From the NCBI GenBank assembly GCA_037015955.1, contig CP143548.1:2660001-2724000 (forward strand): 64,000 bases of DNA, given 5' to 3'. Of the stretch, positions 16,762-58,064 are shown piece by piece. This DNA is from Lachnospiraceae bacterium JLR.KK008. GTDB lineage: Bacteria > Bacillota > Clostridia > Lachnospirales > Lachnospiraceae. A program made the translations under genes and the position numbers. How positions within the stretch are numbered: the first letter of the stretch is position 1; every line of letters begins with the position of its first letter. Below the pieces are notes generated by a model that ran no database searches, had not been told where the DNA came from, and worked only from the letters and a program-made list of their open reading frames with translations.

Positions 16762-16771
16762 AGCCGCTCCT

Positions 16772-17725
16772 TTATGCGCCCTCGTTCTCCCACGTCTCCG
16801 CAATGCTGTAGGAGGTGTCCACATGAACGCCATAATAGATCTTCATCAGGATCTCGCTCATCAGTCCGAAGACAAACATTAACACACCCATCAGAATGAA
16901 AAAGACAGTCAGGATGGGCGGAATGATGTTTCTCGACATTTTAAATCCCATGCAAAACAGCGCAACCGACCAGACGCCGCAGCCCATGCCAATCATTAAA
17001 AACAAAAGCCCGAGTCCGCCAAGCAAATGCAGCGGTCTGGTGGCATATTTATTCCAGAACCAGACGGAAATCATATCGAGAAATCCCTTGAATGTCCGCT
17101 TCCAGTTGTATTTTGTCCTTCCGGAAGTCCTCGGTCTGTGATGCACGACTACTTCTCCGATTGTATATCCTTTGATTTTCAATATCGCCGGAATAAAACG
17201 GTGCTGCTCTCCATATAGATTGACGTCCTGAAAACACTCCCGTCTGTATACTTTCAGTGAGCATCCACTGTCATGTATCCCGTCATGGACGAGAAAATAC
17301 CGCAGCAGATTAGCGCCTCTCGATACAAAGCGCTTCATGAAAGTATCCTTTCGATCTTTTCGCCAGCCGGACACCACGTCCAGATCATTCTCTGTCAGAT
17401 AACACAGCATACCCGGAATATCGGCCGGATCGTTCTGCCTGTCTCCGTCCATCGTCACGATATAATCATACTGCGCCGCCTTGATCCCGGCATCCATTGC
17501 CGCAGTTTGTCCGGAATTTCTCCGCAGACGGATATATTTTAATGGCTTCAGATCTTTACAGATTTTTTTCGTGCCATCCGAAGAACCGTCATCGATAAAA
17601 ATTATCTCATAAATGTAATGATTGGCTTCACAGACTTCTTTAATCTCTCTGTGGAGCTCGGCTACATTTCCTTCTTCATTGTAGATCGGTACTATCACCG
17701 ATATTGTGTACTTATTCTCTTTCAT
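16772..17725 (-). CDS. GtrB/DPM1-like polyprenyl-phosphate glycosyltransferase
   Basis: The 317-residue protein has a GT2 domain (ISVIVPIYNEEGNV, IFIDDGSSDGT, MDGDRQNDP as the metal site) followed by a conserved RTSGRTKYNWKRT linker and two hydrophobic helices (about 230-255 and 268-292). That is the layout of enzymes that transfer a sugar from a nucleotide to undecaprenyl phosphate at the inner face. The product could feed the GT-C proteins at 17795 and 19678 directly upstream. The gap to the amidotransferase gene is 10 nt. Confidence 0.86.
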   Translation of the reverse strand: MKENKYTISVIVPIYNEEGNVAELHREIKEVCEANHYIYEIIFIDDGSSDGTKKICKDLKPLKYIRLRRNSGQTAAMDAGIKAAQYDYIVTMDGDRQNDPADIPGMLCYLTENDLDVVSGWRKDRKDTFMKRFVSRGANLLRYFLVHDGIHDSGCSLKVYRRECFQDVNLYGEQHRFIPAILKIKGYTIGEVVVHHRPRTSGRTKYNWKRTFKGFLDMISVWFWNKYATRPLHLLGGLGLLFLMIGMGCGVWSVALFCMGFKMSRNIIPPILTVFFILMGVLMFVFGLMSEILMKIYYGVHVDTSYSIAETWENEGA

Positions 17726-25622: not shown

Positions 25623-27017
25623 TCATACCTCCAGCAGCGACAACAGATTTCTCAACTGAATATTCAGACAGTTATTAACCTGTGTGAGAATATTCAATGT
25701 ACCGTAATCGCTCCATACATATCCCGGCGGCAGCTCTCCCAATTCCTTTTTGTCGATATAGAGGATCGCATTTCTGTTCTCCTCCTGGTAAAAGCGCCCG
25801 CCTTCCTCCGAGAGGATCGTATCCACGATCACTTCTCTGCCGCTTCTCAGCCGCTGCGTAAACAGCGCTTCGACGCTGTCCGGCTCCTGCTCTGCAAACG
25901 CTTCTCTCTGCACGGTAGGGCCGATCTCTGCGCCGTCAAAACAGCCCACTTCCGGTGCAATTTTTACGAGAAATTTCATCACGCCATCGTCATCACAGCA
26001 AAACAGCCCGAACAGGGCGTTGCCGCCCGCGGCAAAGAGCGGCTGTCTCCAGTGTGTCACTTCCCGTCCTTCGATATTGATGTCACAGAAAACGATGTGA
26101 AAAGGATACGGCCTCTCACAGCAAAACGCATTTCCTTTCATGGACCAGCCGGCCAGCTCAAATAAAGGGACACGCTCCGTCGTCTGCTCCATAAACATTT
26201 TATAATTATTGATCTGATGGTAGATATCCGCGATCGTCCTGCGGTCCATGCTCCATGCGGTTTTATAAAAATAAGGCTTATTCCGGAAAGGCACATCTCC
26301 GTCCTGCCCCATGAGCACATAAGGAATGCAGGACAGAACCGTTCGCGTGTCCATATTGACGAGATTATCATGGCGCATCATCTCTTTGATCTGCGCCAGC
26401 GTCATCCACCGATGGCTGTCCGGCTCTGCCAGCGCGTCATCCACCATGAGAATGACATTGCGGTTCCTTTTTTTCAGAAACCGGGAAGACTGTTCCGACT
26501 GGATCTGATCGACAATAATATCCGCCGTATCCATCTCCGTAAAATAATCAAGGAAAGCCGGCAGCTTCCCGCCATGCCTCCCTGTAAAATTGCTTTTCGT
26601 CGCCTGCAGAGTCGGTGAGAGCTGCACAACATTGACGTTGCCGGGCTCGATCTTGGCCTGCATCAGATAATGCCAGAGACCGCCGATCTTGCAGCAGAGA
26701 ATACCGAGAAAGCCGATCTCATTCTGCTCGATAATCGGCTGCTGAAGACGGATCTTCCCATTGTACGTCTGCCGGATGCCGGATATTTTGAAAAAGCTCC
26801 CTGACTCATTGCGAATACAGCCCTCGTCCGTATCATAATACCAGGGTGCGCATTCATCCAGAGTGATTCTCGTCAGAGATACCCGCAGCCTTGCCTTCCG
26901 CTCCTCCAGCCACTTATGAAGCGACTCTGTGGAATGCAGCGCCTCCCGCTCCTCTTCGGACGGTTCTGATATTTCCGTGATCTGATCAAAAATCCTGCTG
27001 CCTTTTCTATCTTCCAT
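25623..27017 (-). CDS. NDP-hexose 2,3-dehydratase
   Basis: The 464-residue protein matches the EvaA/TylX3-type family that removes the C2 hydroxyl of dTDP-4-keto-6-deoxyglucose to give a 3,4-diketo-2,6-dideoxy intermediate. It shows the family's two internally similar halves: the first contains QLSPTLQATKSNF near residue 165, the second EIGPTVQREAF near 390, each preceded by a strand with a conserved GCF/GLWHY element. Length fits the family. It overlaps the cupin gene start region by 11 nt and is 5 nt from the next gene. The 4,6-dehydratase that would supply substrate (RmlB) is not in this window. Confidence 0.86.
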   Translation of the reverse strand: MEDRKGSRIFDQITEISEPSEEEREALHSTESLHKWLEERKARLRVSLTRITLDECAPWYYDTDEGCIRNESGSFFKISGIRQTYNGKIRLQQPIIEQNEIGFLGILCCKIGGLWHYLMQAKIEPGNVNVVQLSPTLQATKSNFTGRHGGKLPAFLDYFTEMDTADIIVDQIQSEQSSRFLKKRNRNVILMVDDALAEPDSHRWMTLAQIKEMMRHDNLVNMDTRTVLSCIPYVLMGQDGDVPFRNKPYFYKTAWSMDRRTIADIYHQINNYKMFMEQTTERVPLFELAGWSMKGNAFCCERPYPFHIVFCDINIEGREVTHWRQPLFAAGGNALFGLFCCDDDGVMKFLVKIAPEVGCFDGAEIGPTVQREAFAEQEPDSVEALFTQRLRSGREVIVDTILSEEGGRFYQEENRNAILYIDKKELGELPPGYVWSDYGTLNILTQVNNCLNIQLRNLLSLLEV

Positions 27018-27438
27018 CGAATGCCTCTAAAGCCTCCAGAAATTCCTGATAATCGTCATAAGTCTCCCCGCCCGGCTCAAATACCCGGTCACACACCGCC
27101 ATCATTACACAGTCCGCAGTAAAATTTTTCATTGTGCGCCAGATCATGGCATCAATATAAAGTCCTTTCGTCGGGTCATCCATATGATAAGTCTTTTTCT
27201 CTGTGCCGTCATCCACTTCCACGTCACAGCTCCCGGTGACAGGAATGAGCACCAGTCTTGTCTTTTTGGTCGCATGTTCGCCCCTGGCCGCCCCGGGAAT
27301 CACATCTCTCACCCAGAAAATGCGCCTGATGTCAAACGGCAGGGGATTGTTATTGTGCTCCACAACGAGCAGCCTGCCGTCATGCTCCTGAACGGCTTTT
27401 ATATCAATCAGATAACTCTTTCTATCCTTCATATGCAT
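27007..27438 (-). CDS. FdtA/WxcM-like sugar 3,4-ketoisomerase (divergent)
   Basis: A 143-residue cupin. The order RGEHATKK (52-59), then GSCDVEVDDG and DPTKGLYID, then DCVMMAVC matches TDP-4-oxo-6-deoxyglucose 3,4-ketoisomerases. However, the HAH pair normally present in FdtA is HAT here (H55, T57), and the later Trp-His is Trp-Arg (IWRT), so two expected active-site histidines are missing. It may be a ketoisomerase with altered chemistry, or have lost that activity. It overlaps the FdtB-like gene by 17 nt, the usual partner of FdtA in making 3-amino-3,6-dideoxyhexoses. Confidence 0.72.
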   Translation of the reverse strand: MHMKDRKSYLIDIKAVQEHDGRLLVVEHNNNPLPFDIRRIFWVRDVIPGAARGEHATKKTRLVLIPVTGSCDVEVDDGTEKKTYHMDDPTKGLYIDAMIWRTMKNFTADCVMMAVCDRVFEPGGETYDDYQEFLEALEAFDGR

Positions 27439-28519
27439 TGACCGCCTTTATCACTTTTTCGATCTCCTCATCCGACAGATAATCCATCATCGGCAGCGAG
27501 ACGACCGTCTGGCAATCCCGCTCAGCGATCGGGAAGGAACCGGCTCCATGGCCCAGATACGAGAGCGCCGGCTGTAAATGCGGCGGCGTGGGAAAATGCA
27601 CATCGGTCTGAATCTCATGATCCTGCATATATTTTCGGAATCCCGCCTGATCCTCCACATTGATGACAAACAGATACCAGATCGGCACCGCGCCCTCCGC
27701 CACTTTGGGCAGTCTGATCCGGGGATTCGTAATCCCCTTCAGATAAGCCTCGGCAATCTTCCTCCGGCTGGCCAGCAATTCTTCCATGTGGCTCAGCTTC
27801 ACCCTCAGCAGTCCCGCCTGCATCTCGTCCAGACGGGAATTAAACCCAAGAACAATATTATGATACTTATAGTCGCTTCCATAATTCCTGAGAGTCTTGA
27901 TCCGTTCAATCAATTCCTGATTACGGGATACGATACCGCCGCCGTCCCCGAAACAGCCAAGATTTTTCGTCGGATAAAAACTGAAAAAGCCGGCATCCCC
28001 GAACAGTCCGGTGTTGACACCCCGGTACGAAGCAAAATGGGACTGCGCACAGTCTTCAAAGAGCATCAGGCCATGCTTTTTACAGATCTCCACGATCCGC
28101 TCCATCCGTGTGGCCTGACCATACAGATGTGTGACGAGCACTGCCTTTGTCCGCTCCGTGATCGCTGCCCCGACCTTGTCCGGGTCCATGTTGTGATATT
28201 CATCCGGTTCCACAAACACCGGAATACCGCCGTTTTGGGTGATGCCCAGCATCGTGGCAATGTAGCCGTTGGACTGTACGATCACTTCGTCGCCATCCGT
28301 TATACCGCAGGCATGAAGGCCAAGCCGGATGGCATTCAGCCCATTGTCCACCCCCGCACAATAACAGTCTCCGCCGAGTGCCTGTGCAAACTCCTCCTCG
28401 AATGCTTCCACTTCTTTTCCGAGAATATACCACCCGCTCTGCAAGACAGAGATTGCTTTCCTGTTATATTCCTCTTCATACAGACGATAACCTCTGATCA
28501 GTTCATTTACCGGTATCAT
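27422..28519 (-). CDS. FdtB-like dTDP-3-keto-sugar aminotransferase (DegT family)
   Basis: This 365-residue PLP enzyme has a lysine (K185) in FFSFYPTKNLGCFGDGG to hold the cofactor, EDCAQSHFASYRG before it, and NSRLDEMQAGLLRVKL after it, as in DegT/DnrJ/EryC1 sugar aminotransferases. Its best-fitting subgroup from memory is FdtB/QdtB, which aminates C3 of dTDP-3-keto-6-deoxyhexoses. The overlap with the FdtA-like gene supports C3. Because a 2,3-dehydratase lies in the same run, the product could also be a 3-amino-2,3,6-trideoxy sugar. The start has AAGGAGG at ideal spacing. Confidence 0.84.
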   Translation of the reverse strand: MIPVNELIRGYRLYEEEYNRKAISVLQSGWYILGKEVEAFEEEFAQALGGDCYCAGVDNGLNAIRLGLHACGITDGDEVIVQSNGYIATMLGITQNGGIPVFVEPDEYHNMDPDKVGAAITERTKAVLVTHLYGQATRMERIVEICKKHGLMLFEDCAQSHFASYRGVNTGLFGDAGFFSFYPTKNLGCFGDGGGIVSRNQELIERIKTLRNYGSDYKYHNIVLGFNSRLDEMQAGLLRVKLSHMEELLASRRKIAEAYLKGITNPRIRLPKVAEGAVPIWYLFVINVEDQAGFRKYMQDHEIQTDVHFPTPPHLQPALSYLGHGAGSFPIAERDCQTVVSLPMMDYLSDEEIEKVIKAVNAYEG

Positions 28520-28531
28520 AATCTGCCTCCT

Positions 28532-45817: not shown

Positions 45818-46237
45818 TCATTCCTCCTTCGGTTTCACCAGAGCAGTTCCGGCAATGACCTGTTCTCCGTTTTGATTATAGCAGTTTGTAGACAGCACTG
45901 CACGCTTTTTTTCCGTCTGCAGCTGCGACACCACGATCTCCACCCGCACAACATCGCCGGCATAAACAGGCCGCAGAAACGTCAGCTCCTGTTTCATATA
46001 GATACAGCCCTCTCCCGGGAGCTCTGTGCCGATCATCGCAGAGATAAAACTGCCGGTCAGCATCCCATGAGCAATTCTCCTTCCGAATCTTGTCTTACTC
46101 GCGTAAGTTTCATCCAGATGAAGCGGATTGCTGTCCTGTGAGACTTCTGCAAACGCCGCCACGCTCTCCTGCGTCACAGGAAATTCCCGCTCTGCCTTCT
46201 GACCGACAGACAACTGTTTCATTGATAAACTCTGCAT
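45818..46237 (-). CDS. MaoC-like (R)-specific enoyl-CoA hydratase
   Basis: A 139-residue hot-dog protein with QDSNPLHLDE (D35, N37, P38, H40), the hydratase motif of PhaJ/MaoC enzymes, and FGRRIAHGMLTGSFIS after it. These make (R)-3-hydroxyacyl-CoA from trans-2-enoyl-CoA. The length matches single-domain PhaJ. The motif's usual Gly before Asp is Gln. It is unexpected in a polysaccharide locus and lies between a GtrII-like gene and a GNAT gene, with almost no gaps. A role in supplying a hydroxyacyl group for sugar N-acylation is inferred. GGGGAAG upstream supports the start. Confidence 0.85.
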   Translation of the reverse strand: MQSLSMKQLSVGQKAEREFPVTQESVAAFAEVSQDSNPLHLDETYASKTRFGRRIAHGMLTGSFISAMIGTELPGEGCIYMKQELTFLRPVYAGDVVRVEIVVSQLQTEKKRAVLSTNCYNQNGEQVIAGTALVKPKEE

Positions 46238-47912: not shown

Positions 47913-49436
47913 CTATTCTCCTTTTTCTATTATGTACACCTGCACTCTCACATCTTCAATGCAATGGATTCCCGCATCTGTGAAAAATACATTCCGGTCA
48001 GAGCAGTCCTCTTTGAAATGAAATTCGTCATTGTCAAGCGTATCAAAAAAATAAATACGGTTTTCGTCCGTCAGGTAAGAGAGAATCATGGCTTCATCTC
48101 TCGTATCTGTCAGATTGCCAAACATCTCCTTGAATAATTCTTCCGTCTGCTGCCTCCAGTAGTAGCAGACCTGCGTCTCCGGCATCGCATAACTGAGCGC
48201 AAGCCGTGTCTGTCCGAGATTGGCAAGAATCACGTCGCCTTCCCGTATCGTCCCCAAAAGGGCTTCTATCTGCTGCCAGCCCTCCCGACTCTCCCGCTCC
48301 ACTCTCATAAAATGTGTCAGATTCATCGTCGTCACACAGAGCAGAAACACGAGGACTCCGGTCTTCAGCAGAGGATTCTTCCGTTTGGAAATGGAAATGG
48401 CAAAGCCGAGCCAGAGTGTGCCCAGTCCAAAAAACAGATACCGCTGTACAAGTACTGGCTTCATACAGATGGAAGCCGCCACACCGACCGCAATGATAAA
48501 AAAGGGGACGCCCACCCCCGTGGTCGCACAAAACGCAGTCTCTCTGCCTGCTTCCCCACTGCACCGCCATAGCAGAACGATTGTACCTGCTAACAGTAAA
48601 AAGGTGAGAAACCCCAATATCGTTCCGCTGTGCCAGCGATACACCTTCGGATTGAATAAAAACTGGAAAAATGAAAACAGTGTGGAAAGAGAAATCTTCT
48701 CAATCCAATAGTCAGCCTTCACCGCACCCATCTGACGGCGGATAACCGGCAGCCATGGCAGATAGCCAATTACCGCGATCGCCGCGCTCAGCAGCCATTT
48801 TTTCAGACTTTTCCGCCGATACAGAAACAGATACAGACCGAGACTCAGATATAAAAACGCCGCGGCCACGCAGGAAAAATAATGCGTATAGGCTGCCAGC
48901 AGGCCAAACAGACCAAACCATACATACTGCCGCCATTCCTCCGCTCCCCGGATAATTTTACAAAGTGCCAGATAGGCAAGCACCAGAAAGCACATTCCCC
49001 AGCCATACATTCTGATCTCCACCGCATACCGCATCATCTGCGGCATCCCTGTCAGACATAAGAAGAAGATGCCAAAGGTACCCGGAAACTCCCTTCTGAT
49101 CCGAAACCAGGCTACGGCAGTCAGTAAAATCCATGGTATGACGGAAGCCAGCTTACCCGAGATCACCGGATTTATGGAAAAAAGATTTCCAATCGAAAGA
49201 ACCGTCTTCAGGATCCAATAATAAAGCGGCGGGTGTACGTCCTGTGCCGTATACCGCACAATGTCCGCATAACTTTTCTCCGCCAGTTTCATGGAAAACG
49301 TCTCGTCACCCAAAATAGCCGGATGAAGGGCCTCCAGAAAGATACAGAGCAGAAAAAAACACCCTGCGCCCACTGCGATTCCGTCAACAATCTTTAATAT
49401 CCGCTCGTACTTCCTGTAATCTTTCGTATGATTCAT
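47913..49436 (-). CDS. GT-C membrane glycosyltransferase (PMT_2-like)
   Basis: I take ATG 49436 (GGGGAT six bases upstream); the frame reaches 49496. The 507-residue protein has about thirteen helices and the loop HPAILGDETFSMKLAEKSYAD followed by QDVHPPLYYWILK, paralogous to the gene at 23753. RYAVEIRMYGWGM and the later MKPVLVQRYLFFGLG are also shared in outline with that protein. It overlaps the WbqC gene by 53 nt. A polyprenyl-phosphate sugar is the expected donor. Confidence 0.75.
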   Translation of the reverse strand: MNHTKDYRKYERILKIVDGIAVGAGCFFLLCIFLEALHPAILGDETFSMKLAEKSYADIVRYTAQDVHPPLYYWILKTVLSIGNLFSINPVISGKLASVIPWILLTAVAWFRIRREFPGTFGIFFLCLTGMPQMMRYAVEIRMYGWGMCFLVLAYLALCKIIRGAEEWRQYVWFGLFGLLAAYTHYFSCVAAAFLYLSLGLYLFLYRRKSLKKWLLSAAIAVIGYLPWLPVIRRQMGAVKADYWIEKISLSTLFSFFQFLFNPKVYRWHSGTILGFLTFLLLAGTIVLLWRCSGEAGRETAFCATTGVGVPFFIIAVGVAASICMKPVLVQRYLFFGLGTLWLGFAISISKRKNPLLKTGVLVFLLCVTTMNLTHFMRVERESREGWQQIEALLGTIREGDVILANLGQTRLALSYAMPETQVCYYWRQQTEELFKEMFGNLTDTRDEAMILSYLTDENRIYFFDTLDNDEFHFKEDCSDRNVFFTDAGIHCIEDVRVQVYIIEKGE

Positions 49437-50145
49437 CAGATGATCCCCGTAGTATCTTTCTCGATCTCTCAATTCCGCAGTTAAACAACAGATCAATGCT
49501 GCTCAGATATGGAATAAATGTCCCGAACTGCTGTGGATAGACCGGATGCCGGAAGTCCTGCCACAAAACCCGTATTCCAGCCTGCTCATAGACAGCCGGA
49601 TCATAATAGTCCGCCGCCCCTGTACCGGACAGATACGTCTTCGCCCCCAGCTTATTCATAATATCCACGATCATCTCATTGTTCTTCCCCTGCGGCTGCA
49701 AATCGGAAGAAAACACAATGTCGACCGTAATATCAAACAACTCCAGAAGCATTTTAATCGAGGCAAAACTGAAGTCCCAGAAATAAACATAATCTTCTCC
49801 ATACAGTTTTTCGACATAGGGCATGATCTCTTTATAGTATGCCGCTTTCCGGTAGTTCTGATGAAGCAGACCAAGATTATTTTTCTGCCATTTTCCATCA
49901 TCCAGCAGGAGAATCTCTTTGATCGGCGTCTCTCTCGGCGCTTTCTTTACGCAGACCGTGATCCACTGCTCCCCCTTCTCCGTCTTGATCTTATCCCGGT
50001 TCATCCAGCTGCGGCTTGTGCCGTTTACATACTGCGCCGTCTCCAGCACGACATACGTATCCGCATGGAGCAGCCTGTCAAAAAACCCCAGATACGGCAT
50101 AAAATCCGGCTGATGAATGACGACTGTCTTCTCTTCCTCTCTCAT
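49384..50145 (-). CDS. wbqC: WbqC-like family protein
   Basis: The 253-residue protein matches the WbqC family of O-antigen and capsule loci: VVIHQPDFMPYLGFFDRLLHAD at the start, then QYVNGTSRSWMNRDKI, TYLSGTGAADYYDP and FRHPVYPQQFGTFIPYLSSIDLLFNCG toward the end. The biochemical activity of the family is not established as far as I know. It frequently accompanies rare amino sugars. Here it ends a nonulosonate block, 75 nt from the SpsG-like gene, with AAGGAG before the start. No membrane segments. Confidence 0.85.
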   Translation of the reverse strand: MREEEKTVVIHQPDFMPYLGFFDRLLHADTYVVLETAQYVNGTSRSWMNRDKIKTEKGEQWITVCVKKAPRETPIKEILLLDDGKWQKNNLGLLHQNYRKAAYYKEIMPYVEKLYGEDYVYFWDFSFASIKMLLELFDITVDIVFSSDLQPQGKNNEMIVDIMNKLGAKTYLSGTGAADYYDPAVYEQAGIRVLWQDFRHPVYPQQFGTFIPYLSSIDLLFNCGIERSRKILRGSSDESYERLQEVRADIKDC

Positions 50146-50220
50146 GAAAACTCCTTTTTTGTCAGATTTTACAGGGACTTGCGAATCGCAATGACTGCAA
50201 ACGCTTCATGCACAGTTACC

Positions 50221-51192
50221 TTAAATTCCCATCCCGCCAATACCCATAATCCCGCAGATACGCGCTGCACCGGACAGGCTCACCGTCTCCATTCCCCGTC
50301 TGCTCATGGCGCCGATGTCTCTGATCTCTGTGATTCTCTCCAGGTCCATCTCTTTATAATAGCCCGCAAACAGCGCACAGCCCTGCCGCTCCAGATAGCG
50401 TCCGATCTGGATCTCATGAATCTCATTAGCCACGACCACACAGGGCAGCCCGGAGGCCGCCGCCTCCAGCGCCGTCACACCGCCTCCTGTGACGGCAAGA
50501 TCAAATTCCGCCAGAAAGCAAATGAGCGACGGCACGGCAGAGACGACCGTAAACCCGGTCCCCTCCGCTGCTCTCCTGACTTCGCTCTCAATCACGGCGT
50601 CCGGCCCCAGAAGAATCGTGATTTTTTTATGTAATTCTTTATGCCGGCGGAAAAATTCCATCACGCGCAGTGTCACTCCGTATGTGTCACTTCCGCCCAG
50701 CGTTACCAGTATATTTTCTACTTTACTTCTCTCTCGGCGGTATGTCTCAATCTGTGGATTGAGAATCAGGTAGTCGCACCCCGCATATACTTTCCTGCCC
50801 GGCACCCGTTCCACATCTTCAAAGATCAGACTGGCAAAATTTCCATCTGCCAGGGCCGCCCCCTCCCCCATATCATCGATCGTATACAGGGGAATCCCGG
50901 TGTCTGTCACATGCCTGGCCGTCACATAAGACGTATCCAGCCTGTCATTCAGCCAGACTGTGATCTGATACTCTCTGATCAGAGCGCCTTCCCAGTCGCT
51001 TGTCAGGTCACGCAGGTCTGCGGTCACCGCCGCGATACACCACTGCTCCAGAATACGCAGCGCCCCCGCATCCTCATTGACGATGAGCACATACGGTTCC
51101 TGCAGATGCTCCAGCATATGAATCAGATTGAGGGCACGGAACAGATGCCCCATCCCTCTCTGATGAGAACATTCTACGCATATTGCGAGCAT
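50221..51192 (-). CDS. spsG: SpsG/PseG-like GT-B protein (UDP-sugar hydrolase or transferase)
   Basis: The 323-residue protein has the CSHQRGMGHLFRALNL loop (G-x-GH-x-x-R) and a C-terminal NILVTLGGSDTYGVT, then DLAVTGGGVTALEAAASGLP motif, as in PseG (which hydrolyses a UDP-diacetamido-sugar in pseudaminate synthesis) and the Bacillus spore-coat protein SpsG. Overlap of 19 nt with the SpsF-like gene and proximity to SpsE/NeuB repeat the spsEFG order of Bacillus. It could free the 6-carbon sugar used by the NeuB-type synthase. A transferase role cannot be excluded. Confidence 0.8.
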   Translation of the reverse strand: MLAICVECSHQRGMGHLFRALNLIHMLEHLQEPYVLIVNEDAGALRILEQWCIAAVTADLRDLTSDWEGALIREYQITVWLNDRLDTSYVTARHVTDTGIPLYTIDDMGEGAALADGNFASLIFEDVERVPGRKVYAGCDYLILNPQIETYRRERSKVENILVTLGGSDTYGVTLRVMEFFRRHKELHKKITILLGPDAVIESEVRRAAEGTGFTVVSAVPSLICFLAEFDLAVTGGGVTALEAAASGLPCVVVANEIHEIQIGRYLERQGCALFAGYYKEMDLERITEIRDIGAMSRRGMETVSLSGAARICGIMGIGGMGI

Positions 51193-51848
51193 AAAGCGAT
51201 CGCCTCCTCCGTCGTCGCCAGACCGGTCTTACTGTGGGACGCGATATAACAGGCTTTCTCATAGTCCTCCTGCGTATCTACCGTCAGCCTGACCTGCGGC
51301 GCATTTTTCTCCGGCGCCACCTGCAGTGTCCCTGTCTTAAATTTGTCCATATTCTCTAAAATATATTCGTCCACATGCTCGAAGTGATGGGGCATACTTG
51401 CCTTTTCCATATCTTCCTCAAGCGCCGCGAAGCTGAATATCTCCGCTCCCACACCGATCGGAAGCTGCGAAAACGATTCCGTAAACCCATTGTCACACTG
51501 TTTGTGATAAGCAATCAGCCTGTCCACTTCCTCCACATCCACAAAGGGATTGTCCGCTGTCAGACGCACGATATGGTCAAATCCCTGCTCTCTGGCGCAG
51601 TTGTAGTAGCGGCTGAGCACATTCGACTCACTGCCCCGGAAACAGAGCACATCCTTTTCCCGGCAAAACTGTTCCACCCGGTCATCACCCGTCAGCGTAC
51701 TTGTGGCAATGACAATCACTGCATCCTCTTTCAGCGATTTCAGCCTGTCTATGATATGATCGAGCAGCGTCCGGTCATGAATGACTTTTAAAATCTTTCC
51801 CGGAAGTCTCGTCGACCCGGTTCTTGCCTGTATTATGATTCCTGTCAT
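51174..51848 (-). CDS. spsF: SpsF-like cytidylyltransferase family protein
   Basis: A 224-residue protein: IIIQARTGSTRLPGKIL is the nucleotide-binding start of the CMP-sialate/CMP-Kdo synthetase superfamily in its SpsF form, and RLTADNPFVDVEEVDRL matches the later Asp-containing motif. In this block it should activate the nonulosonic acid with CTP, although the activity of SpsF proteins has been little studied. AAGGAGG precedes the start and the PIG-L gene lies 43 nt upstream. Confidence 0.84.
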   Translation of the reverse strand: MTGIIIQARTGSTRLPGKILKVIHDRTLLDHIIDRLKSLKEDAVIVIATSTLTGDDRVEQFCREKDVLCFRGSESNVLSRYYNCAREQGFDHIVRLTADNPFVDVEEVDRLIAYHKQCDNGFTESFSQLPIGVGAEIFSFAALEEDMEKASMPHHFEHVDEYILENMDKFKTGTLQVAPEKNAPQVRLTVDTQEDYEKACYIASHSKTGLATTEEAIALCSQYA

Positions 51849-51891
51849 GGTTCCTCCTTCTGTGATGATCGTCTGTCAGCGGTCCTGACGT

Positions 51892-52518
51892 CTACGCGAG
51901 CCATTTGGCACAGCGGAATCCTTCCGCCAGTTTCACGCCGCAGACATAACCATGATTCTCGGCCTCTTTTCTGAAATAATTGATCCACGTGTCTCCAACC
52001 CGCTCGTACTCCGACCGGTGCGCCCGGATCACCGCCTCTTTCGTCTCCCACGTATCACTGATGTCACTGTAAAAGTTCGGCGTAAACCGCACGTCGGACT
52101 GATACCAGTTGCTGTGATAGGTTAGAATCCTTGTCACATGCCGGCCCGCATGAAAGCTGGCTCTTGCGAGCGCCGCGTGATCGTGATGCACGTCCTCCCT
52201 GTCATGCGTATAGATCAGATCGATTTTTTCCTGTTCGATCAGTTTTACAAGCTGTGCATTGAGATTATCCTCAAACTCCAGCTTCAGCGTCTCAAATCCG
52301 CCGCAGATCAGTTTGCCGCCGATCAGCGCCGCCGCTGCCGCACCCTCGGCCATCGCCGCTTCATCGCTGCGCACCGTCACCTGATCCGGACTGACAAAGC
52401 CGGAAGTTGTCGCCACATAAATAATTACCTTGTCCCCTCTGTCCACATGCTTTTTCAGACTGCCGCTGCAGCCAAGCTCAATATCGTCAAAATGTGCCCC
52501 GATCGCTAATACATTCAT
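51892..52518 (-). CDS. PIG-L (LmbE) family deacetylase
   Basis: The 208-residue protein has AHFDDIELGCSGSL (H9, D11, D12) and YTHDREDVHHDHAAL near residue 110, the zinc-binding and catalytic motifs of PIG-L deacetylases, which act on GlcNAc-type groups in glycolipids and sugar intermediates. It lies between NeuB and SpsF, so an N-deacetylation of a sugar precursor or nonulosonate before re-acylation is plausible. The enzyme is cytoplasmic. No unusual features. Confidence 0.87.
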   Translation of the reverse strand: MNVLAIGAHFDDIELGCSGSLKKHVDRGDKVIIYVATTSGFVSPDQVTVRSDEAAMAEGAAAAALIGGKLICGGFETLKLEFEDNLNAQLVKLIEQEKIDLIYTHDREDVHHDHAALARASFHAGRHVTRILTYHSNWYQSDVRFTPNFYSDISDTWETKEAVIRAHRSEYERVGDTWINYFRKEAENHGYVCGVKLAEGFRCAKWLA

Positions 52519-52533
52519 CCTGCCGCCTCCTTG

Positions 52534-53544
52534 TTACGCCAAATCCTCCCATGTAAGAACATCCTCTTTCTCCAGATCACGGGCTGCCCGCCTGCCGATC
52601 ACCTGTTCCAGAAACTTCGGTGCAATGCCGTATCCCGGTCGTTTGATGTCCACCGCCTGTGGCCTGATCGGCTCACCGGCCCCGACATTTTCACAGAGCA
52701 CGATGCTCTTTCTGTTATTCCTTCTCGTCACCGCCTCCGCTTTCGCCGGCATCTTGATCCCGCTGCCCCGCATGACTTCAAACATACGCACAGCGTCCAC
52801 GATTGCCCGCATCTCCTGCGGATCTGCAGAGTGCATATGATCCGGCCCTTCGGCCTGTTTGTCACATGTAAAATGTTTTTCCAGCATCTTTGCCCCCATC
52901 GCCGCCGCACAGATGCAGGCCGTCGTTCCAAGCGTATGATCGGAATAGCCGACTGCGAGTCCCGGAAAAGCCTCCTGCAGCGTCCGGACTGCCCGCAGGT
53001 TCACGTCCTCCGGGTGCGTCGGATAAGCGGTGATCGCATGAAGTATTGTGATCCGGCTGTTTCCCTCCGCCAGCATCGCATCGACGGATTCTCTCACTTC
53101 CTCCAGCGTACACATACCGGTGGCGTAAATTATCGGCTTGCCAAGCCTGGCAATATAGCGCAGCAGCGGCAGATTCACCGCGTCGTCCGAGCCGATCTTG
53201 TAGGCGTCGCATCCGAGCCGCTCCAGCATGTCGACATCACTCTTATGAGACGGGGAAGAGAAGATGTCCAGTCCCCGTTCCCTGGCATAGGCAAACACCT
53301 TCCGGTGCAGCTCTTCTCCGACCGCATACTCGTCAAACAATTCATACTGCGAGGTGACGCCTGTGTTTTCCATATCAAAAACCGCTTTTTTGCTGGACAG
53401 AGTCTCCGCCCGGTAGCTTTGCAGCTTAACTGCATCGACGCCGCTCTCCTTTGCGGCATCGATCAGCGCCGCCGCCTGTTCATACGTCGTAAAATTACCG
53501 CCGATCTCCGCAATGATATAAATCTTATGTCTGTTCCAGTTCAT
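52534..53544 (-). CDS. spsE: NeuB/SpsE-like nonulosonic acid synthase
   Basis: I use ATG 53544, six bases after GGGAGG, over 53562. The 336-residue protein condenses an N-acylated 6-carbon sugar with phosphoenolpyruvate to a nine-carbon acid. Visible signs: YIIAEIGGNF at the start, AVKLQSYRAETL, DIFSSPSHKSDVDML, then YKIGSDD, GYSDHTLG and KMLEKHFTCDK with metal and substrate residues, and the C-terminal SAF antifreeze-like domain (about 280-336, with GAGEPI and GYGI). The family covers sialate, legionaminate and pseudaminate synthases; which one cannot be read off. Cofactor Mn2+ expected. Confidence 0.9.
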   Translation of the reverse strand: MNWNRHKIYIIAEIGGNFTTYEQAAALIDAAKESGVDAVKLQSYRAETLSSKKAVFDMENTGVTSQYELFDEYAVGEELHRKVFAYARERGLDIFSSPSHKSDVDMLERLGCDAYKIGSDDAVNLPLLRYIARLGKPIIYATGMCTLEEVRESVDAMLAEGNSRITILHAITAYPTHPEDVNLRAVRTLQEAFPGLAVGYSDHTLGTTACICAAAMGAKMLEKHFTCDKQAEGPDHMHSADPQEMRAIVDAVRMFEVMRGSGIKMPAKAEAVTRRNNRKSIVLCENVGAGEPIRPQAVDIKRPGYGIAPKFLEQVIGRRAARDLEKEDVLTWEDLA

Positions 53545-53575
53545 GTCCGCCCTCCCTGCCATTATGACACATATG

Positions 53576-54445
53576 TCATTTCACTGTTTTCACCGCCGCC
53601 CTGATGATCTCTGTCAATCCCTGCTCCAGTGTATGGCGGGGCCTCCAGCCAAGAACCTCCCCGGCATGGGTAATATCCGCGACCACGTCGTTCAGTTCAT
53701 TTTTACGTGTCTCATTCTTAGATTCCACAGGCTTATGACTGCCGGCAATCTTCTGCACAAGGTCAATGACTTCCGCCACCGAATATGAAATACCGGAGCC
53801 AATATTAAAGACATCATATTCCCGCACATTTTTTATTGTCAGGGCAATGGCCTCCAGCAGATCGTCCAGATAAATATAGTCGCGTCTCGGTGAAAGATCC
53901 ATCACGCGGACACTGTCTTCCCGCATCGCCTGCCGGATGATCTGCGGAATCAGGAAATGGTCTTTCTGACCTTTGCCGTATACATTAAAAGGCCGGATGA
54001 CACTCACCTTTACGCCAAACTGCCCGGCATAAAATTCACAGAGTTCTTCCGCCATATATTTCGACTTCGCATAAGGATTGTTCGGACAGATCCGGTCGGT
54101 CTCCCGGATGGGATTGTACTGCGGCTGCCCGTAAATGTACGCGCTGATATATGTCATCGAGATCTCATATCTGCGGCACAGCTCCAGCATATGCAGCGTG
54201 CCGAACGTGTTTGTCTCGAGAAACTCCGCCGGCGCCTCCCAGCTTCGCGGCACGAATGTCCTGCCTGCCAGATGCACGATATGTCTGATCTGCTTCACCG
54301 GCAGCGCTTCCACCGCCCGCTTGTCCGTTATGTCCAGCTCTGCGGAAGTAAGCGCCATCACCTGTACGCCCCGCTCCCGCAAATAATCTGCCAGCGCCGT
54401 ACCGATGAACCCCCCGGCGCCCGTAATCAAAATTTTTCTGTTCAT
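53576..54445 (-). CDS. NAD(P)-dependent sugar epimerase/dehydratase/reductase (SDR)
   Basis: ATG 54445 begins MNRKILITGAGGFIG, the nucleotide-binding loop; sequence upstream to 54583 overlaps the nucleotidyltransferase gene and does not look real. The 289-residue extended SDR has Y125-x-x-x-K129 (NPYAKSK) and SAYIYG. The short sequence and RDYIYLDDL resemble GDP-4-keto-6-deoxyhexose reductases (Rmd-type). In the nonulosonate block it could reduce the 4-ketone produced by LegB in place of an aminotransferase. Epimerase activity is the alternative. Confidence 0.76.
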   Translation of the reverse strand: MNRKILITGAGGFIGTALADYLRERGVQVMALTSAELDITDKRAVEALPVKQIRHIVHLAGRTFVPRSWEAPAEFLETNTFGTLHMLELCRRYEISMTYISAYIYGQPQYNPIRETDRICPNNPYAKSKYMAEELCEFYAGQFGVKVSVIRPFNVYGKGQKDHFLIPQIIRQAMREDSVRVMDLSPRRDYIYLDDLLEAIALTIKNVREYDVFNIGSGISYSVAEVIDLVQKIAGSHKPVESKNETRKNELNDVVADITHAGEVLGWRPRHTLEQGLTEIIRAAVKTVK

Positions 54446-54473
54446 ATTCCTGTATCCATACCCTCCGCGCATG

Positions 54474-55559
54474 TTACCTGTCTGACTGCTCGCGGATCTC
54501 CCGTGTGCGCAGCATCTCTTCCATTGAGGAGAACTCTCCCATATCCTCCCATGCCTTCTCTGTGATCGGGTAGACGCCCACATGCTCGCCTCTGTCCAGA
54601 CAGACCTGGATCAGATCGGTAATGTGCATAAACCCTTCTTTCGGTATGAGCTGAAGTACCTGCGGATCAAGGACATAGACACCCGTGTTGACGAGGAAAC
54701 TCATCTCCGGTTTCTCCGACAGACTTTCCATCTGTCCGCCTCTGCCGATATTAACAACGCCATAGGGTATCGTGTAATTTTTCAGCGAAGTGATCAGCGT
54801 GATCACATTGCCATGAGAGCGATGAAACTTCATGACCTTGCCATAATCCACATCCAGTAATATATCGCAGTTGCTGACAAAAAACGGTTCCTGGATTTCC
54901 TCTTTGACGAGATAGAGACTGCCCGCAGTGCCAAGGAAATCTTCTTCCTCCAGATATGTGACCGCATAGGCCGGATGCAGATCCTGCATATACGCCTTGA
55001 TCAGATTCTTTCTGTAATTGACAGACAGATAAAACCGGCTGCATCCCGCCTCACGGAACGAATCGATCACCTGCTCCAGTATCGTCGTCTTGCCGATCGG
55101 AATGAGCGGCTTTGGAAGCACCTGTGTATAAGGATAAAGGCGGGTCCCCTTGCCTCCCGCCATGATGACGACCGGCGCCTGCGTCTTCTCTTCACAGCGC
55201 CGCTTTCTCCCCGGCGTCTCATAACGGAACAGAAGATCCAGCAGCATACCGCTCCGGTCGATCACCGGGATCGCATCGATGCCATAGCGTTCCATCAGGC
55301 TGACCGCCCGGTGCGCGTCTTCCTCTGTGACACAGACTGGTTTTTTTGTCATCGCCGCCGTCACGGTTTCCGTCATATCCTGGCTTTTGAGGATCAGTTT
55401 TCTGACATCACTGTCAGTCAAAACGCCGAGAAGTTTGCGGTCTTCCACGATGAGCACAATCCGCTCATGCGTCTCATCCAGCACTTTGATTGCTTCCAGA
55501 ATGGAACACTCCGGCGAGATACAGAGTGTTTCTAATTTATCATACCTCTTCTCATACAT
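54474..55559 (-). CDS. CBS-domain sugar-1-phosphate nucleotidyltransferase (PtmE-like)
   Basis: I start at ATG 55559, 8 nt inside the end of the preceding gene. The 361-residue protein has two CBS domains (about 8-60 and 66-112) and a nucleotidyltransferase domain from residue 129 with VIMAGGKGTRLYPYT and PKPLIPIG, ending in EDMGEFSSMEEML. This two-part layout is that of PtmE, the GlcN-1-phosphate guanylyltransferase of the Campylobacter legionaminate pathway. Adjacent LegB-like gene supports it. CBS domains may bind a nucleotide and tune activity. The base used (GTP, UTP or CTP) is not certain. Confidence 0.83.
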   Translation of the reverse strand: MYEKRYDKLETLCISPECSILEAIKVLDETHERIVLIVEDRKLLGVLTDSDVRKLILKSQDMTETVTAAMTKKPVCVTEEDAHRAVSLMERYGIDAIPVIDRSGMLLDLLFRYETPGRKRRCEEKTQAPVVIMAGGKGTRLYPYTQVLPKPLIPIGKTTILEQVIDSFREAGCSRFYLSVNYRKNLIKAYMQDLHPAYAVTYLEEEDFLGTAGSLYLVKEEIQEPFFVSNCDILLDVDYGKVMKFHRSHGNVITLITSLKNYTIPYGVVNIGRGGQMESLSEKPEMSFLVNTGVYVLDPQVLQLIPKEGFMHITDLIQVCLDRGEHVGVYPITEKAWEDMGEFSSMEEMLRTREIREQSDR

Positions 55560-56532
55560 TATAAATATCTGCCTTATAAATATTCGTGTTCTGTCTGATC
55601 CATTCGACCGTCTCCGCCAGTCCCTGTTCAAACGTATAGCGGGGCTGCCACTTCGTGAGCCGTCTGATTTTTTCATTAGAGCCGAGCAGCCGGTTGACTT
55701 CACTCTTTTCCGGACGGGTGCGCTGCTCATCGCAGACAATCTGTGCCTGCGGATTGATCTGACGGATCAGTTCCTCTGCGAGATCGCCGATGCTGATCTC
55801 TCTCTGCGTGGCGATGTTGATCTCCTCGCCGACCGTCCGTTCTGATCTGGCGATCTCGTAAAAGCCGCTGGCTGTGTCTTTCACATAATTAAAGTCTCTT
55901 GTCGGTGTCAGCGAACCGAGTCTGATCTGCTCCTTTCCCGCCAAAAGCTGGGAGACGATCGTCGGAATGACCGCCCTTGCCGACTGCCTCGGTCCGAATG
56001 TGTTGAACGGCCTGACGATTGTCACCGGCAGTTCAAAGCTCCGGTAAAAGCTCTCTGCCAGCCGGTCAGCCCCGATCTTCGTCGCCGAATACGGTGACTG
56101 CCCCTGATACGGATGCTTTTCGTCGATCGGCACATACTGCGCCGTGCCGTATACTTCCGAAGTGGATGTTATCAATACCCGCTCCAGATCCAGATCCCTC
56201 GCTGCCTGCAGGACGTTTAACGTTCCTTTGATATTCGTATCCACATAGGAATCCGGGGAGTGATAACTGAATGGGATGGCGATCAGCGCCGCCAGATGGA
56301 ACACACCGTCTGTCCCTCTCATTGCCTCCCGCACACCGTTCGGGTCCCGGATGTCTCCCTGAAAGATCTCCAGTTCATCCAGTTTCTCTTTGGGGAAGCT
56401 ATCCAGCCATCCCCAGGAATTAAAAGAATTATAATAAGTAAAGGCCTTCACTTCCAGACCCTGTTCCATCAGATATTCCGTCAGGTGGCTGCCGATAAAT
56501 CCGTCCGCCCCTGTCACCAACACTTTTTTCAT
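55552..56532 (-). CDS. legB: LegB-like NDP-GlcNAc 4,6-dehydratase
   Basis: ATG 56532 overlaps the preceding gene by 4 nt. The 326-residue SDR starts KKVLVTGADGFIGSHLTEYL and has TSTSEVYGT (122-130), Y148-x-x-x-K152 in SPYSATK, and RPFNTFGPRQSARAVIP. The run FYNSFNSWGWLDSFP-type segment (residues 33-47) and GDIRDPNGVREAM are hallmarks of LegB as I remember it. The enzyme forms a 4-keto-6-deoxy-GlcNAc nucleotide, first step toward legionaminate-type acids. In Campylobacter the carrier is GDP, which fits the PtmE-like neighbour. LegC is not seen next to it. Confidence 0.86.
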   Translation of the reverse strand: MKKVLVTGADGFIGSHLTEYLMEQGLEVKAFTYYNSFNSWGWLDSFPKEKLDELEIFQGDIRDPNGVREAMRGTDGVFHLAALIAIPFSYHSPDSYVDTNIKGTLNVLQAARDLDLERVLITSTSEVYGTAQYVPIDEKHPYQGQSPYSATKIGADRLAESFYRSFELPVTIVRPFNTFGPRQSARAVIPTIVSQLLAGKEQIRLGSLTPTRDFNYVKDTASGFYEIARSERTVGEEINIATQREISIGDLAEELIRQINPQAQIVCDEQRTRPEKSEVNRLLGSNEKIRRLTKWQPRYTFEQGLAETVEWIRQNTNIYKADIYNV

Positions 56533-58064
56533 ACTCCCAGTCCTTTCCGTATCTCTTCCACTGCCAGCTTTACAACCTCTTTTCTGCTCTGTTCCACTAA
56601 GTCCGGATCGGCGCCTTCGATCGGGGAATAGATGCAGATACCGCTGTCCGCAAAGGCCCGGAAATAGTTTCTCACGGACAGGGCCGATATTTCTCCGCCT
56701 CTCAGGATTTCTTCGATGGCTGCTCTGCACTGCGCCTCATTACCGACCTGATAGATGCCCGGTCCATGTTCAAATCCGCCGTGTCCGAATACCAGAACCG
56801 GTCTGCCGTTGGCGATGGCCTCGATCGATACGGTTCCTGCCGGCGTCGCCGCCGCCACACAGTGCTCCAGCAGATCGACCGACTCCGCCTCACTGCTCAC
56901 AAGCGTGACATTGTCCGTATCCCGCAGATCTTCATAAAAACGCTGCATCCGATACGGCTGTACAAAATGTTCTTTTACATAGAGCCGGATGCCATATTTT
57001 TTCAGAACCGGTGCAAGCAGCTGCACGCAAAGCTCCTGCTCTGCGAATACCCCTGCCTGCGGCAGTGTCGTCGCCTCCGGCTGCAGATGCAGCAGGAATA
57101 ATACATACTTTTCATGTTCCATCTCCGGCATTACGGCCATTTTCTCATAATCATCGATCGTAGCACAGTGTCTCAGCTTATGCCGCACCTTTTGAATGCA
57201 GTAGGCATCTTTTCTCATCCATGCCAGACTTTCCTTCCAGGGCGCGGCCGATCTCTCCCGCAGCGCGCCTGCAAGCCCATGCTTTACCCGGGAGAGCTGA
57301 CGCTTCCATATCTTATCCCGCATCACATATCCCATGATTTGCCGTTTTTCTTTTTTGGCATGTTCTTTCCGGCTGCCGGAACCGAGCATCACTTTCATCT
57401 TCTGCAACTTATTTTCTTTCAGCAACGCCTGATAGTAAGCCTCCACATCCTCTGGCAGCGTTACCTGCTTATCTCCGCCTCTCTTCCCCTGACGCTCGTA
57501 GTCCTCATAAGTCTTATCCAGCCGTTCATACAAACGGTACAGATCATTGCCAACAAAGCACCAGTGCGGCAGATGGGTCGGCGCCAGAATGCACATGGGA
57601 ATCTGTCTCGCCCTGGTCAACGCATAGATGATATAGTCGTGCGTATGATGTGGAATCCCGGTGAGAAAGACAAAATTGATTTCATTTCTCATAAATACGT
57701 CATTCCAAAACCGCAGATGATGAAGGTAAAACCGCTTGGCCTCATCATACGTGAATATATCAAAATCGGTAATGCGGCAGAGCATCTTTACTGCCACAGG
57801 CTCATATGGCTCCATTGCTGACAGAATCTCCCGGTCAAGGGGAAGCAGACCATTCATATCCATTTTCTGCTCATATCTGGCATTGGCGCACATATCATAG
57901 TCGACTGTTTCATATTTTGCGGGATCGTAACTGTCATTGCCATCGTTGTCCCGGCTCGTCAGCACACATCTGTGAAAATGAACCTGTTCGTCGATCTCTT
58001 TCAGAATAGAAGTCTGATACCCGTTTACGGAATCATACCCCTGAAAAAATAAGTTAATGTTCAT
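56529..58064 (-). CDS. KpsC/KpsS-like GT-B protein, candidate nonulosonate transferase
   Basis: ATG 58064 follows AGGAGA at six bases. The 511-residue soluble protein has an N-terminal half I do not recognise and a basic middle (about 210-290). From about residue 325, LHLQPEATTLPQAGVFAEQ, LYVKEHF, then DLLEHCVAAATPAGTVSIEAIANGRPVLVFG resemble the donor domain of capsule-synthesis proteins (KpsC/KpsS type, some of which are Kdo transferases using CMP-Kdo). Directly upstream of LegB in the nonulosonate block, it is a candidate to transfer the CMP-activated acid. It overlaps the exporter gene by 11 nt. Family placement is tentative. Confidence 0.62.
   Translation of the reverse strand: MNINLFFQGYDSVNGYQTSILKEIDEQVHFHRCVLTSRDNDGNDSYDPAKYETVDYDMCANARYEQKMDMNGLLPLDREILSAMEPYEPVAVKMLCRITDFDIFTYDEAKRFYLHHLRFWNDVFMRNEINFVFLTGIPHHTHDYIIYALTRARQIPMCILAPTHLPHWCFVGNDLYRLYERLDKTYEDYERQGKRGGDKQVTLPEDVEAYYQALLKENKLQKMKVMLGSGSRKEHAKKEKRQIMGYVMRDKIWKRQLSRVKHGLAGALRERSAAPWKESLAWMRKDAYCIQKVRHKLRHCATIDDYEKMAVMPEMEHEKYVLFLLHLQPEATTLPQAGVFAEQELCVQLLAPVLKKYGIRLYVKEHFVQPYRMQRFYEDLRDTDNVTLVSSEAESVDLLEHCVAAATPAGTVSIEAIANGRPVLVFGHGGFEHGPGIYQVGNEAQCRAAIEEILRGGEISALSVRNYFRAFADSGICIYSPIEGADPDLVEQSRKEVVKLAVEEIRKGLGV

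Follow-up and report, generated by a model that had tools for sequence, protein, structure and literature searches.

An eight-gene cassette in a Lachnospiraceae genome, proposed to make a CMP-activated nonulosonic acid distinct from legionaminic, pseudaminic and neuraminic acids

The nine-gene block and its products

The DNA considered here is a stretch of 64,000 nucleotides from Lachnospiraceae bacterium JLR.KK008 (contig CP143548.1; called the window below), which covers positions 2660001-2724000 of a single-contig genome of 3.19 Mb that is 99.17% complete. At 49384-58064 of the window lie nine minus-strand genes, every frame of which is complete with an ATG start and one stop, and because the spacing between them is only -19 to +75 bases they look like one operon, in agreement with the tight group of nine genes described in an earlier reading of the same letters (the original prediction). 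In order, they encode a KpsC-like protein, LegB, a CBS-domain nucleotidyltransferase, an Rmd-like short-chain dehydrogenase/reductase (SDR), NeuB/SpsE, PIG-L, SpsF, SpsG and WbqC. The eight genes from LegB to WbqC recur together elsewhere, and we propose, with a probability of about 60%, that they form a dedicated pathway to a nonulosonic acid activated with cytidine monophosphate (CMP), which would be neither legionaminic acid (Leg), pseudaminic acid (Pse) nor neuraminic acid (Neu).

LegB (55552-56532; 326 aa) is a nucleotide-N-acetylglucosamine (GlcNAc) 4,6-dehydratase by its match to TIGR04180 (517.3 bits against a cut-off of 475), and the sugar-1-phosphate nucleotidyltransferase next to it (54474-55559; 361 aa) is of the PtmE type, with two PF00571 (CBS) domains and PF00483 (E 1.8e-36). 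The Rmd-like SDR (53576-54445; 289 aa; Epimerase domain, E 1.4e-51), a proposed 4-keto reductase, is followed by a nonulosonate synthase of the NeuB/SpsE type from a divergent clade (52534-53562; 342 aa; PF03102 with E 1.7e-82, plus SAF). Then come a de-N-acetylase of the PIG-L/LmbE family (51892-52518; 208 aa; PF02585, E 1.9e-17), a CMP-nonulosonate synthetase of the SpsF type (CTP_transf_3; 51174-51848; 224 aa; PF02348, E 1.3e-28), an SpsG/PseG-like nucleotide-sugar hydrolase (50221-51192; 323 aa) and WbqC (49384-50145; 253 aa; PF08889, E 1.7e-69), for which we propose N-acyltransferase or amide ligase activity. SpsG has no Pfam match at 1e-3 and matches TIGR03590 below its cut-off (E 1e-16; 61.4 against 153.55); its His16 is invariant in 10 of 10 aligned loci, as are His9-Asp11-Asp12 and His112-Asp113-His114 of PIG-L in 11 of 11. 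The Pfam search found no aminotransferase or acetyltransferase domain in any of the nine proteins, which bears out the predicted lack of LegH in the block; a genome-wide LegH search was not made.

The KpsC-like putative glycosyltransferase (56529-58064; 511 aa) is present as predicted, and its assignment is weak: the best KpsC chain is matched with E 0.11, there is no Pfam match and the structure model is poor, with a mean predicted local distance difference test (pLDDT) of 51. A KpsC-like gene adjoins LegB in three of the comparison loci treated below (L032, L035 and L037) and was not found in L033, L038, L039, L041, L042, L119 and L120. It may be a lineage-specific neighbour and a candidate CMP-nonulosonate transferase.

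Recurrence of the cassette from LegB to WbqC

The eight genes occur together with an order that varies between loci. It turned out that nine distinct loci hold the complete cassette, namely the window, L032, L033, L037, L039, L041, L042, L119 and L120, and a tenth (L038, Sporofaciens) has all eight with the nucleotidyltransferase reading as two frames. In L034, L035 and L043 a contig end truncates the cassette, of which the remaining genes are present. Duplicates are L032 with L036 and L033 with L040, while L115-L117 are the same DNA as L035, L043 and L037; the "LegB" rows of L034 and L043 proved to be mis-scored SDRs and were left out. The held-out loci, outside the profiles and the discovery set, are L119 and L120 only, both on rhizobial megaplasmids.

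Hosts of the cassette are Lachnospiraceae, unplaced gut bacteria, a Desulfuromonadales and a Planctomycetia metagenome-assembled genome (MAG) and the two rhizobial megaplasmids. By record taxonomy the phyla are Bacillota, Thermodesulfobacteriota, Planctomycetota and Pseudomonadota, with L037 and L039 placed no lower than Bacteria; L036 is a Lachnospiraceae MAG (isolate SIG339) of the same genus as the window genome. A search with the SDR alignment gave ten loci in GTDB genomes, two of them from genomes already met, and independent SDR and WbqC searches matched the identical 2 of 72,556 plasmid records. The SDR is carried by 5 of 10 genomes of the genus and 3 of 200 of the family (own genome included in both counts). 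The surveys at phylum level, in which the 6-8 best candidates per genome were scored, found it in the own genome alone (1 of 398) and, among Planctomycetota, in the cassette-bearing Planctomycetia genome itself (1 of 294). Viral contigs gave a single 24% match. Such a patchy distribution is consistent with horizontal spread.

The content of the cassette is stable in most respects. Every locus that is not truncated by the end of its contig has WbqC, and that of L039 is distant (29% identical), which suggests that the slot may be required even where the gene has been exchanged. The deacetylase, previously named as part of the block, is a fixed member of the cassette. None of the loci scanned showed a DegT aminotransferase gene within the cassette. 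The nucleotidyltransferases of L041, L042, L119 and L120 have about 240-260 residues, too short for the CBS part, and that of L041 is nearest to guanylyltransferase models, below their cut-offs.

As controls we used 20 NeuB loci of the same class in 17 genomes, drawn from 35 NeuB matches in 26 genomes; they are mainly the best-scoring ones, some near-identical, and thus neither random nor independent. None of the 20 has an orthologue of the SDR, WbqC or PIG-L: the best scores were at most 58 bits for the cassette SDR profile and at most 74 bits for PIG-L (49-74 in three loci), with no match for WbqC. The two rhizobial loci, which are not in the profiles, scored 319-345 (SDR), 331-333 (PIG-L) and 290-307 (WbqC). 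DegT genes lie in 17 of the 20 control stretches, and eight controls resemble Leg clusters in having LegB above 500 bits with a CBS-nucleotidyltransferase; one of the 20, L075, by eye has NeuC-like and acyltransferase-like genes too. Chance clustering was rejected, since the cassette recurs in distant taxa and the control loci are without orthologues of these three genes.

Radical-SAM genes (of the SPASM type where tested) lie inside or right after some cassettes (L038:10855-11919, L039:10851-11915, L119:12878-13903 and L120:10875-11903) and after PIG-L in L041 and L042, and might add a tailoring step. They were rejected as core members, because four cassettes (window, L032, L033 and L037) showed none.

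The SDR, the aminotransferases and the synthase

A profile built from three SDRs was compared with solved structures. Its best match is 4zrm, deposited as a UDP-glucose 4-epimerase (153.4 bits), followed by 6x3b, a GDP-6-deoxy-D-mannose reductase (150.9 bits), with the similar reductase 2pk3 in fifth place; the SDR also matches the LegB model (152.6 bits). Ser101, Tyr125 and Lys129 are invariant in 11 of 11 aligned loci. In dehydratases the acidic residue after the catalytic Ser has a role; LegB of the block has Ser-Glu there, whereas the SDR has Ser-Ala-Tyr. This missing acid, together with the position of the SDR in the place of LegC and its kinship to Rmd, leads us to propose that it reduces C4. 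The name Rmd-like given earlier is backed by two reductases among the top matches and qualified by the epimerase above them: the profile scores as well to the epimerase as to Rmd, and the label would also be compatible with an epimerase. The SDR could then be a 4-epimerase or a second-step dehydratase, and the C4 state or configuration of the sugar would differ. The top solved match and the LegB-model score fit this, but Ser-Tyr-Lys is kept without the acid found in LegB and two GDP-sugar reductases stand among the five best solved matches, so that we hold it very unlikely.

The original prediction had also stated that LegC is absent. This holds for the block and, above cut-off, for the whole genome, but six genes of the DegT family score above 200 bits in it, among them a LegC-like gene at 2735393 (374 bits against a cut-off of 420), 11 kb beyond the window end. 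No LegC above cut-off was found in the 10 other cassette genomes either, and NeuC/LegG above the TIGR03568 cut-off occurs in 0 of 11 (own best 91.7 against 235.9), with completeness not stated for eight of the 11. Next to the LegC-like gene are a dehydratase of the PseB/CapD type and what by eye is a PglC-type sugar-phosphate transferase, which resembles the gene arrangement for diacetylbacillosamine.

These genes raise the question of a Leg-type route in disguise, in which the 2735393 enzyme or another DegT protein aminates the LegB product in trans and the SDR does something else. Some DegT-type gene is indeed present in 9 of the 10 other cassette genomes, and the front end of LegB and CBS-nucleotidyltransferase is the one shared by the eight Leg-looking controls. 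Against this, none of the 11 genomes has LegC or LegG above cut-off, the own LegC-like gene has a PseB/CapD-type dehydratase as its neighbour, every cassette contains the SDR while all 20 controls lack it, and the L033 cassette has housekeeping genes on one side and three genes of glycan type on the other (by eye). We consider a disguised Leg route quite improbable.

Another aminotransferase candidate, the FdtB-like enzyme at 27422 that had been suggested as an alternative, was rejected, as it lies 21 kb from the block and pairs with an FdtA-like gene (by eye), and as no scanned cassette contained a DegT gene. The pair (27007-28525) is likely a route to a deoxythymidine diphosphate (dTDP)-3-amino sugar unrelated to the block.

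Three further NeuB-family genes are present in the own genome, one in a Pse operon, one at about 2640000 and one at 434866. The Pse operon (2749728-2756994, outside the window) has PseB, PseC, PseF, PseI and PseG above cut-offs, while no NCBIfam model matched its PseH position under the strict limit applied. An ordinary Pse route from a PseC elsewhere, which the original prediction had named as a threat to its claim, is thus present in part, with five of six genes shown; as it has its own PseI, PseF and PseG, it does not explain the block, which adds another route. The second gene lies at L006:102-2041 (genome 2640102-2642041); its neighbours by eye are a cytidylyltransferase, a HAD-phosphatase/SIS fusion and, close by, a radical-SAM gene, and it may serve a further acidic sugar.

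The synthase of the block falls below the equivalog cut-offs of PseI (285.8 against 340.25) and NeuB_NnaB (327.6 against 399.65), and the block NeuB proteins form one separate clade among 44 tree rows with support of 100/99 (L004 and L070 left out). In the numbering of the meningococcal enzyme (Nm), Glu25, Lys53, Lys129, His215, His236, Asp247 and Arg314, which serve as catalytic residues, are kept in 11 of 11 block rows. The pocket is changed at Nm30 (His to Phe), Nm112 (Phe to Ser, once Ala), Nm113 (to His), Nm116 (to Asp) and Nm133 (to Asp; residue 126 of the block protein). In the unpruned alignment all 11 block rows and none of the 35 others have Asp at Nm133; L004 likewise has Phe at Nm30, so that the Asp is unique to the block and the Phe is not (the pocket count covers 32 other rows, without L003, L004 and L070). 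A synthase of this cassette can be recognized by Asn-Phe at Nm 29-30, Ser-His at Nm 112-113 (Ala at 112 once) and Lys-Ile/Val-Gly-Ser/Ala-Asp at Nm 129-133.

Counting residues along the NeuB chain equates Nm133 with the position that reads the C2 substituent, which according to section 7 of PMC7371886 is Gly in Neu and Leg synthases and Phe in those for Pse. The rhizobial L119 and L120 agree with Asp there. An invariant Asp suggests that something other than plain acetamide is read at C2, for example an unmodified amine, an acyl group with a charge or a changed configuration, and this would put PIG-L ahead of the condensation. Alternatively, the 7-hydroxy assignment could be right while PIG-L and WbqC modify another sugar of the same glycan. 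The pair does occur outside nonulosonate clusters (L106 and L112), but both genes accompany the remaining six in every uncut locus, in four phyla, and the C2 pocket of NeuB is altered; we regard modification of another sugar as unlikely.

A proposed pathway and its relation to known routes

The gene identities and their co-occurrence, the separate NeuB clade and its residue changes are observed; from them we infer all the reactions and the sequence in which they occur, as well as the stereochemistry and the nature of the acyl group. The CBS-nucleotidyltransferase would make GlcNAc linked to guanosine diphosphate (GDP-GlcNAc), which LegB would convert to the 4-keto-6-deoxy sugar. At C4, the site of transamination by LegC and acetylation by LegH in the Leg route, the Rmd-like SDR would instead reduce the keto group to a hydroxyl. 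PIG-L would strip the 2-N-acetyl group and WbqC would probably add another acyl group to the amine, most likely before condensation. SpsG would hydrolyse off the nucleotide, and NeuB/SpsE would use phosphoenolpyruvate to form a 3,5,9-trideoxy nonulosonate that bears a hydroxyl at C7 and, on N5, a group other than acetyl, whereas the usual bacterial forms have two acetylated amines there. SpsF would yield the CMP-sugar, whose transfer to a surface glycan may, in some Lachnospiraceae, fall to the KpsC-like protein. As LegG/NeuC is lacking above cut-off and SpsG is PseG-like, either SpsG epimerises or C5 of the acid differs, so the product may have a C5 configuration different from Leg. Gene content thus upholds the predicted nonulosonate route that differs from those to Leg and Pse: an SDR takes the place of the aminotransferase, and a 7-hydroxyl is expected. 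The predicted de-N-acetylation also fits the fixed deacetylase, but with WbqC as a core member another N-acyl group is likelier than a free amine.

WbqC is rare, being present in 8 of 196 genomes of the class (own included). Outside the block, 10 matches were found in eight stretches of eight genomes, the window's own among them (L108-L110 come from one family); all eight stretches hold a DegT or PIG-L gene, and PIG-L directly adjoins WbqC in L106 and L112. The simplest shared role would be acylation of an amine made by a neighbouring enzyme, and in the cassette PIG-L is the sole visible source of such an amine, which leads to our reading of WbqC as the acylating enzyme. Its structure model is good (pLDDT 85.3); among weak fold matches nucleotidylyltransferase and class I tRNA-synthetase folds recur, a hint of adenylate or amide chemistry.

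Extending this, the cassette could stand for a further nonulosonate class in at least four phyla, 7-hydroxy-9-deoxy and with its N5 acetyl exchanged by the pair of deacetylase and WbqC. C5 may then be of gluco rather than manno descent, with a PseG-like hydrolase replacing the 2-epimerase, and WbqC would be an amide-forming enzyme acylating amines made by PIG-L or DegT. We offer this tentatively, as possible with the odds somewhat against it.

Several points weigh against the pathway as drawn. A DegT gene lies 1-3 kb outside the cassette in L039, L042 and L119, and a DegT fragment at the edge of the L038 locus. The linkage to GDP rather than uridine diphosphate (UDP) would follow from the kinship of LegB and PtmE and the sub-cut-off guanylyltransferase matches of L041. 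Arg314, which in meningococcal NeuB touches the N-acyl group, is conserved in all 11 block rows, which tells against a simple free amine and rather suggests a new acyl group. The C2 position varies even among known enzymes, with Tyr in B. subtilis SpsE and Ser in some sampled rows, and is called "mostly but not strictly conserved" in section 7 of PMC7371886. WbqC has no relative of solved structure, no PDB fold matched its model at E <=0.001 (best E 0.017), and a DegT gene near it says little given the DegT genes of the controls, so that the two PIG-L pairs weigh most. Several cassette loci come from MAGs, and with radical-SAM genes in or beside some cassettes the products may differ between lineages.

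Compared with known systems, the broad nonulosonate kind is recognizable in a NeuB-family synthase with its presumed catalytic residues and a CMP-synthetase. The Campylobacter CMP-legionaminate enzymes are PtmE, LegB, LegC, LegH, LegG, LegI and LegF in an excerpt of PMC13317340; the block shares the CBS-nucleotidyltransferase and LegB front end, the NeuB-family synthase and the final CMP-synthetase, but is without LegC, LegH and LegG and has the Rmd-like SDR, PIG-L, WbqC and SpsG. For the sps pathway of Bacillus subtilis, part of PMC7439481 gives SpsM, C, D, G, E and F, with a product assigned by mass and high-performance liquid chromatography and an SpsG epimerisation needed if that product is true Leg; the main text of that paper makes no mention of NMR. 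The block has the same SpsE, SpsF and SpsG type of back end but no SpsC aminotransferase or SpsD acetyltransferase, and LegB replaces the UDP-type SpsM dehydratase. With the Pse pathway (PseB, C, H, G, I, F), separate in this genome, it shares a PseG-like hydrolase and the NeuB family; it differs in having LegB instead of PseB and no aminotransferase, and its NeuB and SpsG do not reach the cut-offs of PseI and PseG. The Neu5Ac pathway differs in that no NeuC was found above cut-off and the block NeuB is below that of NeuB_NnaB. As the defining features of Leg, Pse and Neu were looked for and not found, the cassette is not placed in those pathways.

The nearest known product is fusaminic acid of Fusobacterium nucleatum 25586, a natural 3,5,9-trideoxy nonulosonate with acetimidoyl on N5 according to excerpts of PMC13014188 and PMC5595891; in part of PMC7371886 the name is used also for a 5,7-diamino acid. 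It resembles the product predicted here from genes alone in being 9-deoxy, by its name 7-hydroxy, and non-acetyl on N5, but its configuration is tentatively L-glycero-L-gluco in those excerpts, while LegB predicts a D-sugar. Among titles and abstract openings of the open-access literature, we found no paper describing this cassette or a WbqC activity; there, neither this set of genes nor its distribution nor the exchange by PIG-L and WbqC appears to have been described. Hosts, phages and lectins recognize nonulosonates on bacterial surfaces. When such acids are predicted from genomes, the call tends to be Neu, Leg or Pse, and the present cassette would be wrongly labelled as a Leg or "spore coat" pathway. 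It would offer a concrete, transferable set of genes leading to another acid, and it suggests for WbqC a first function that can be tested.

Some neighbouring genes should also be mentioned. The PIG-L/WbqC pair of L112 (5629-7023; about 1518628-1520022 of the window's genome) lies in a prophage-like stretch with ParB-like and terminase-like frames (by eye), where it perhaps acylates amines in phage DNA or modifies a glycan. A second PIG-L-like paralogue, 56% identical to that of the block, lies 4 kb past the window end (L007:4287-4916; genome 2728287-2728916); Asn-Asn replaces Asp-Asp of its metal motif, and it looks catalytically dead or re-purposed. Within the glycan island of the window, a MaoC-type hydratase gene is found at 45818-46237, and a similar frame adjoins the L037 cassette (16709-17125, by eye).

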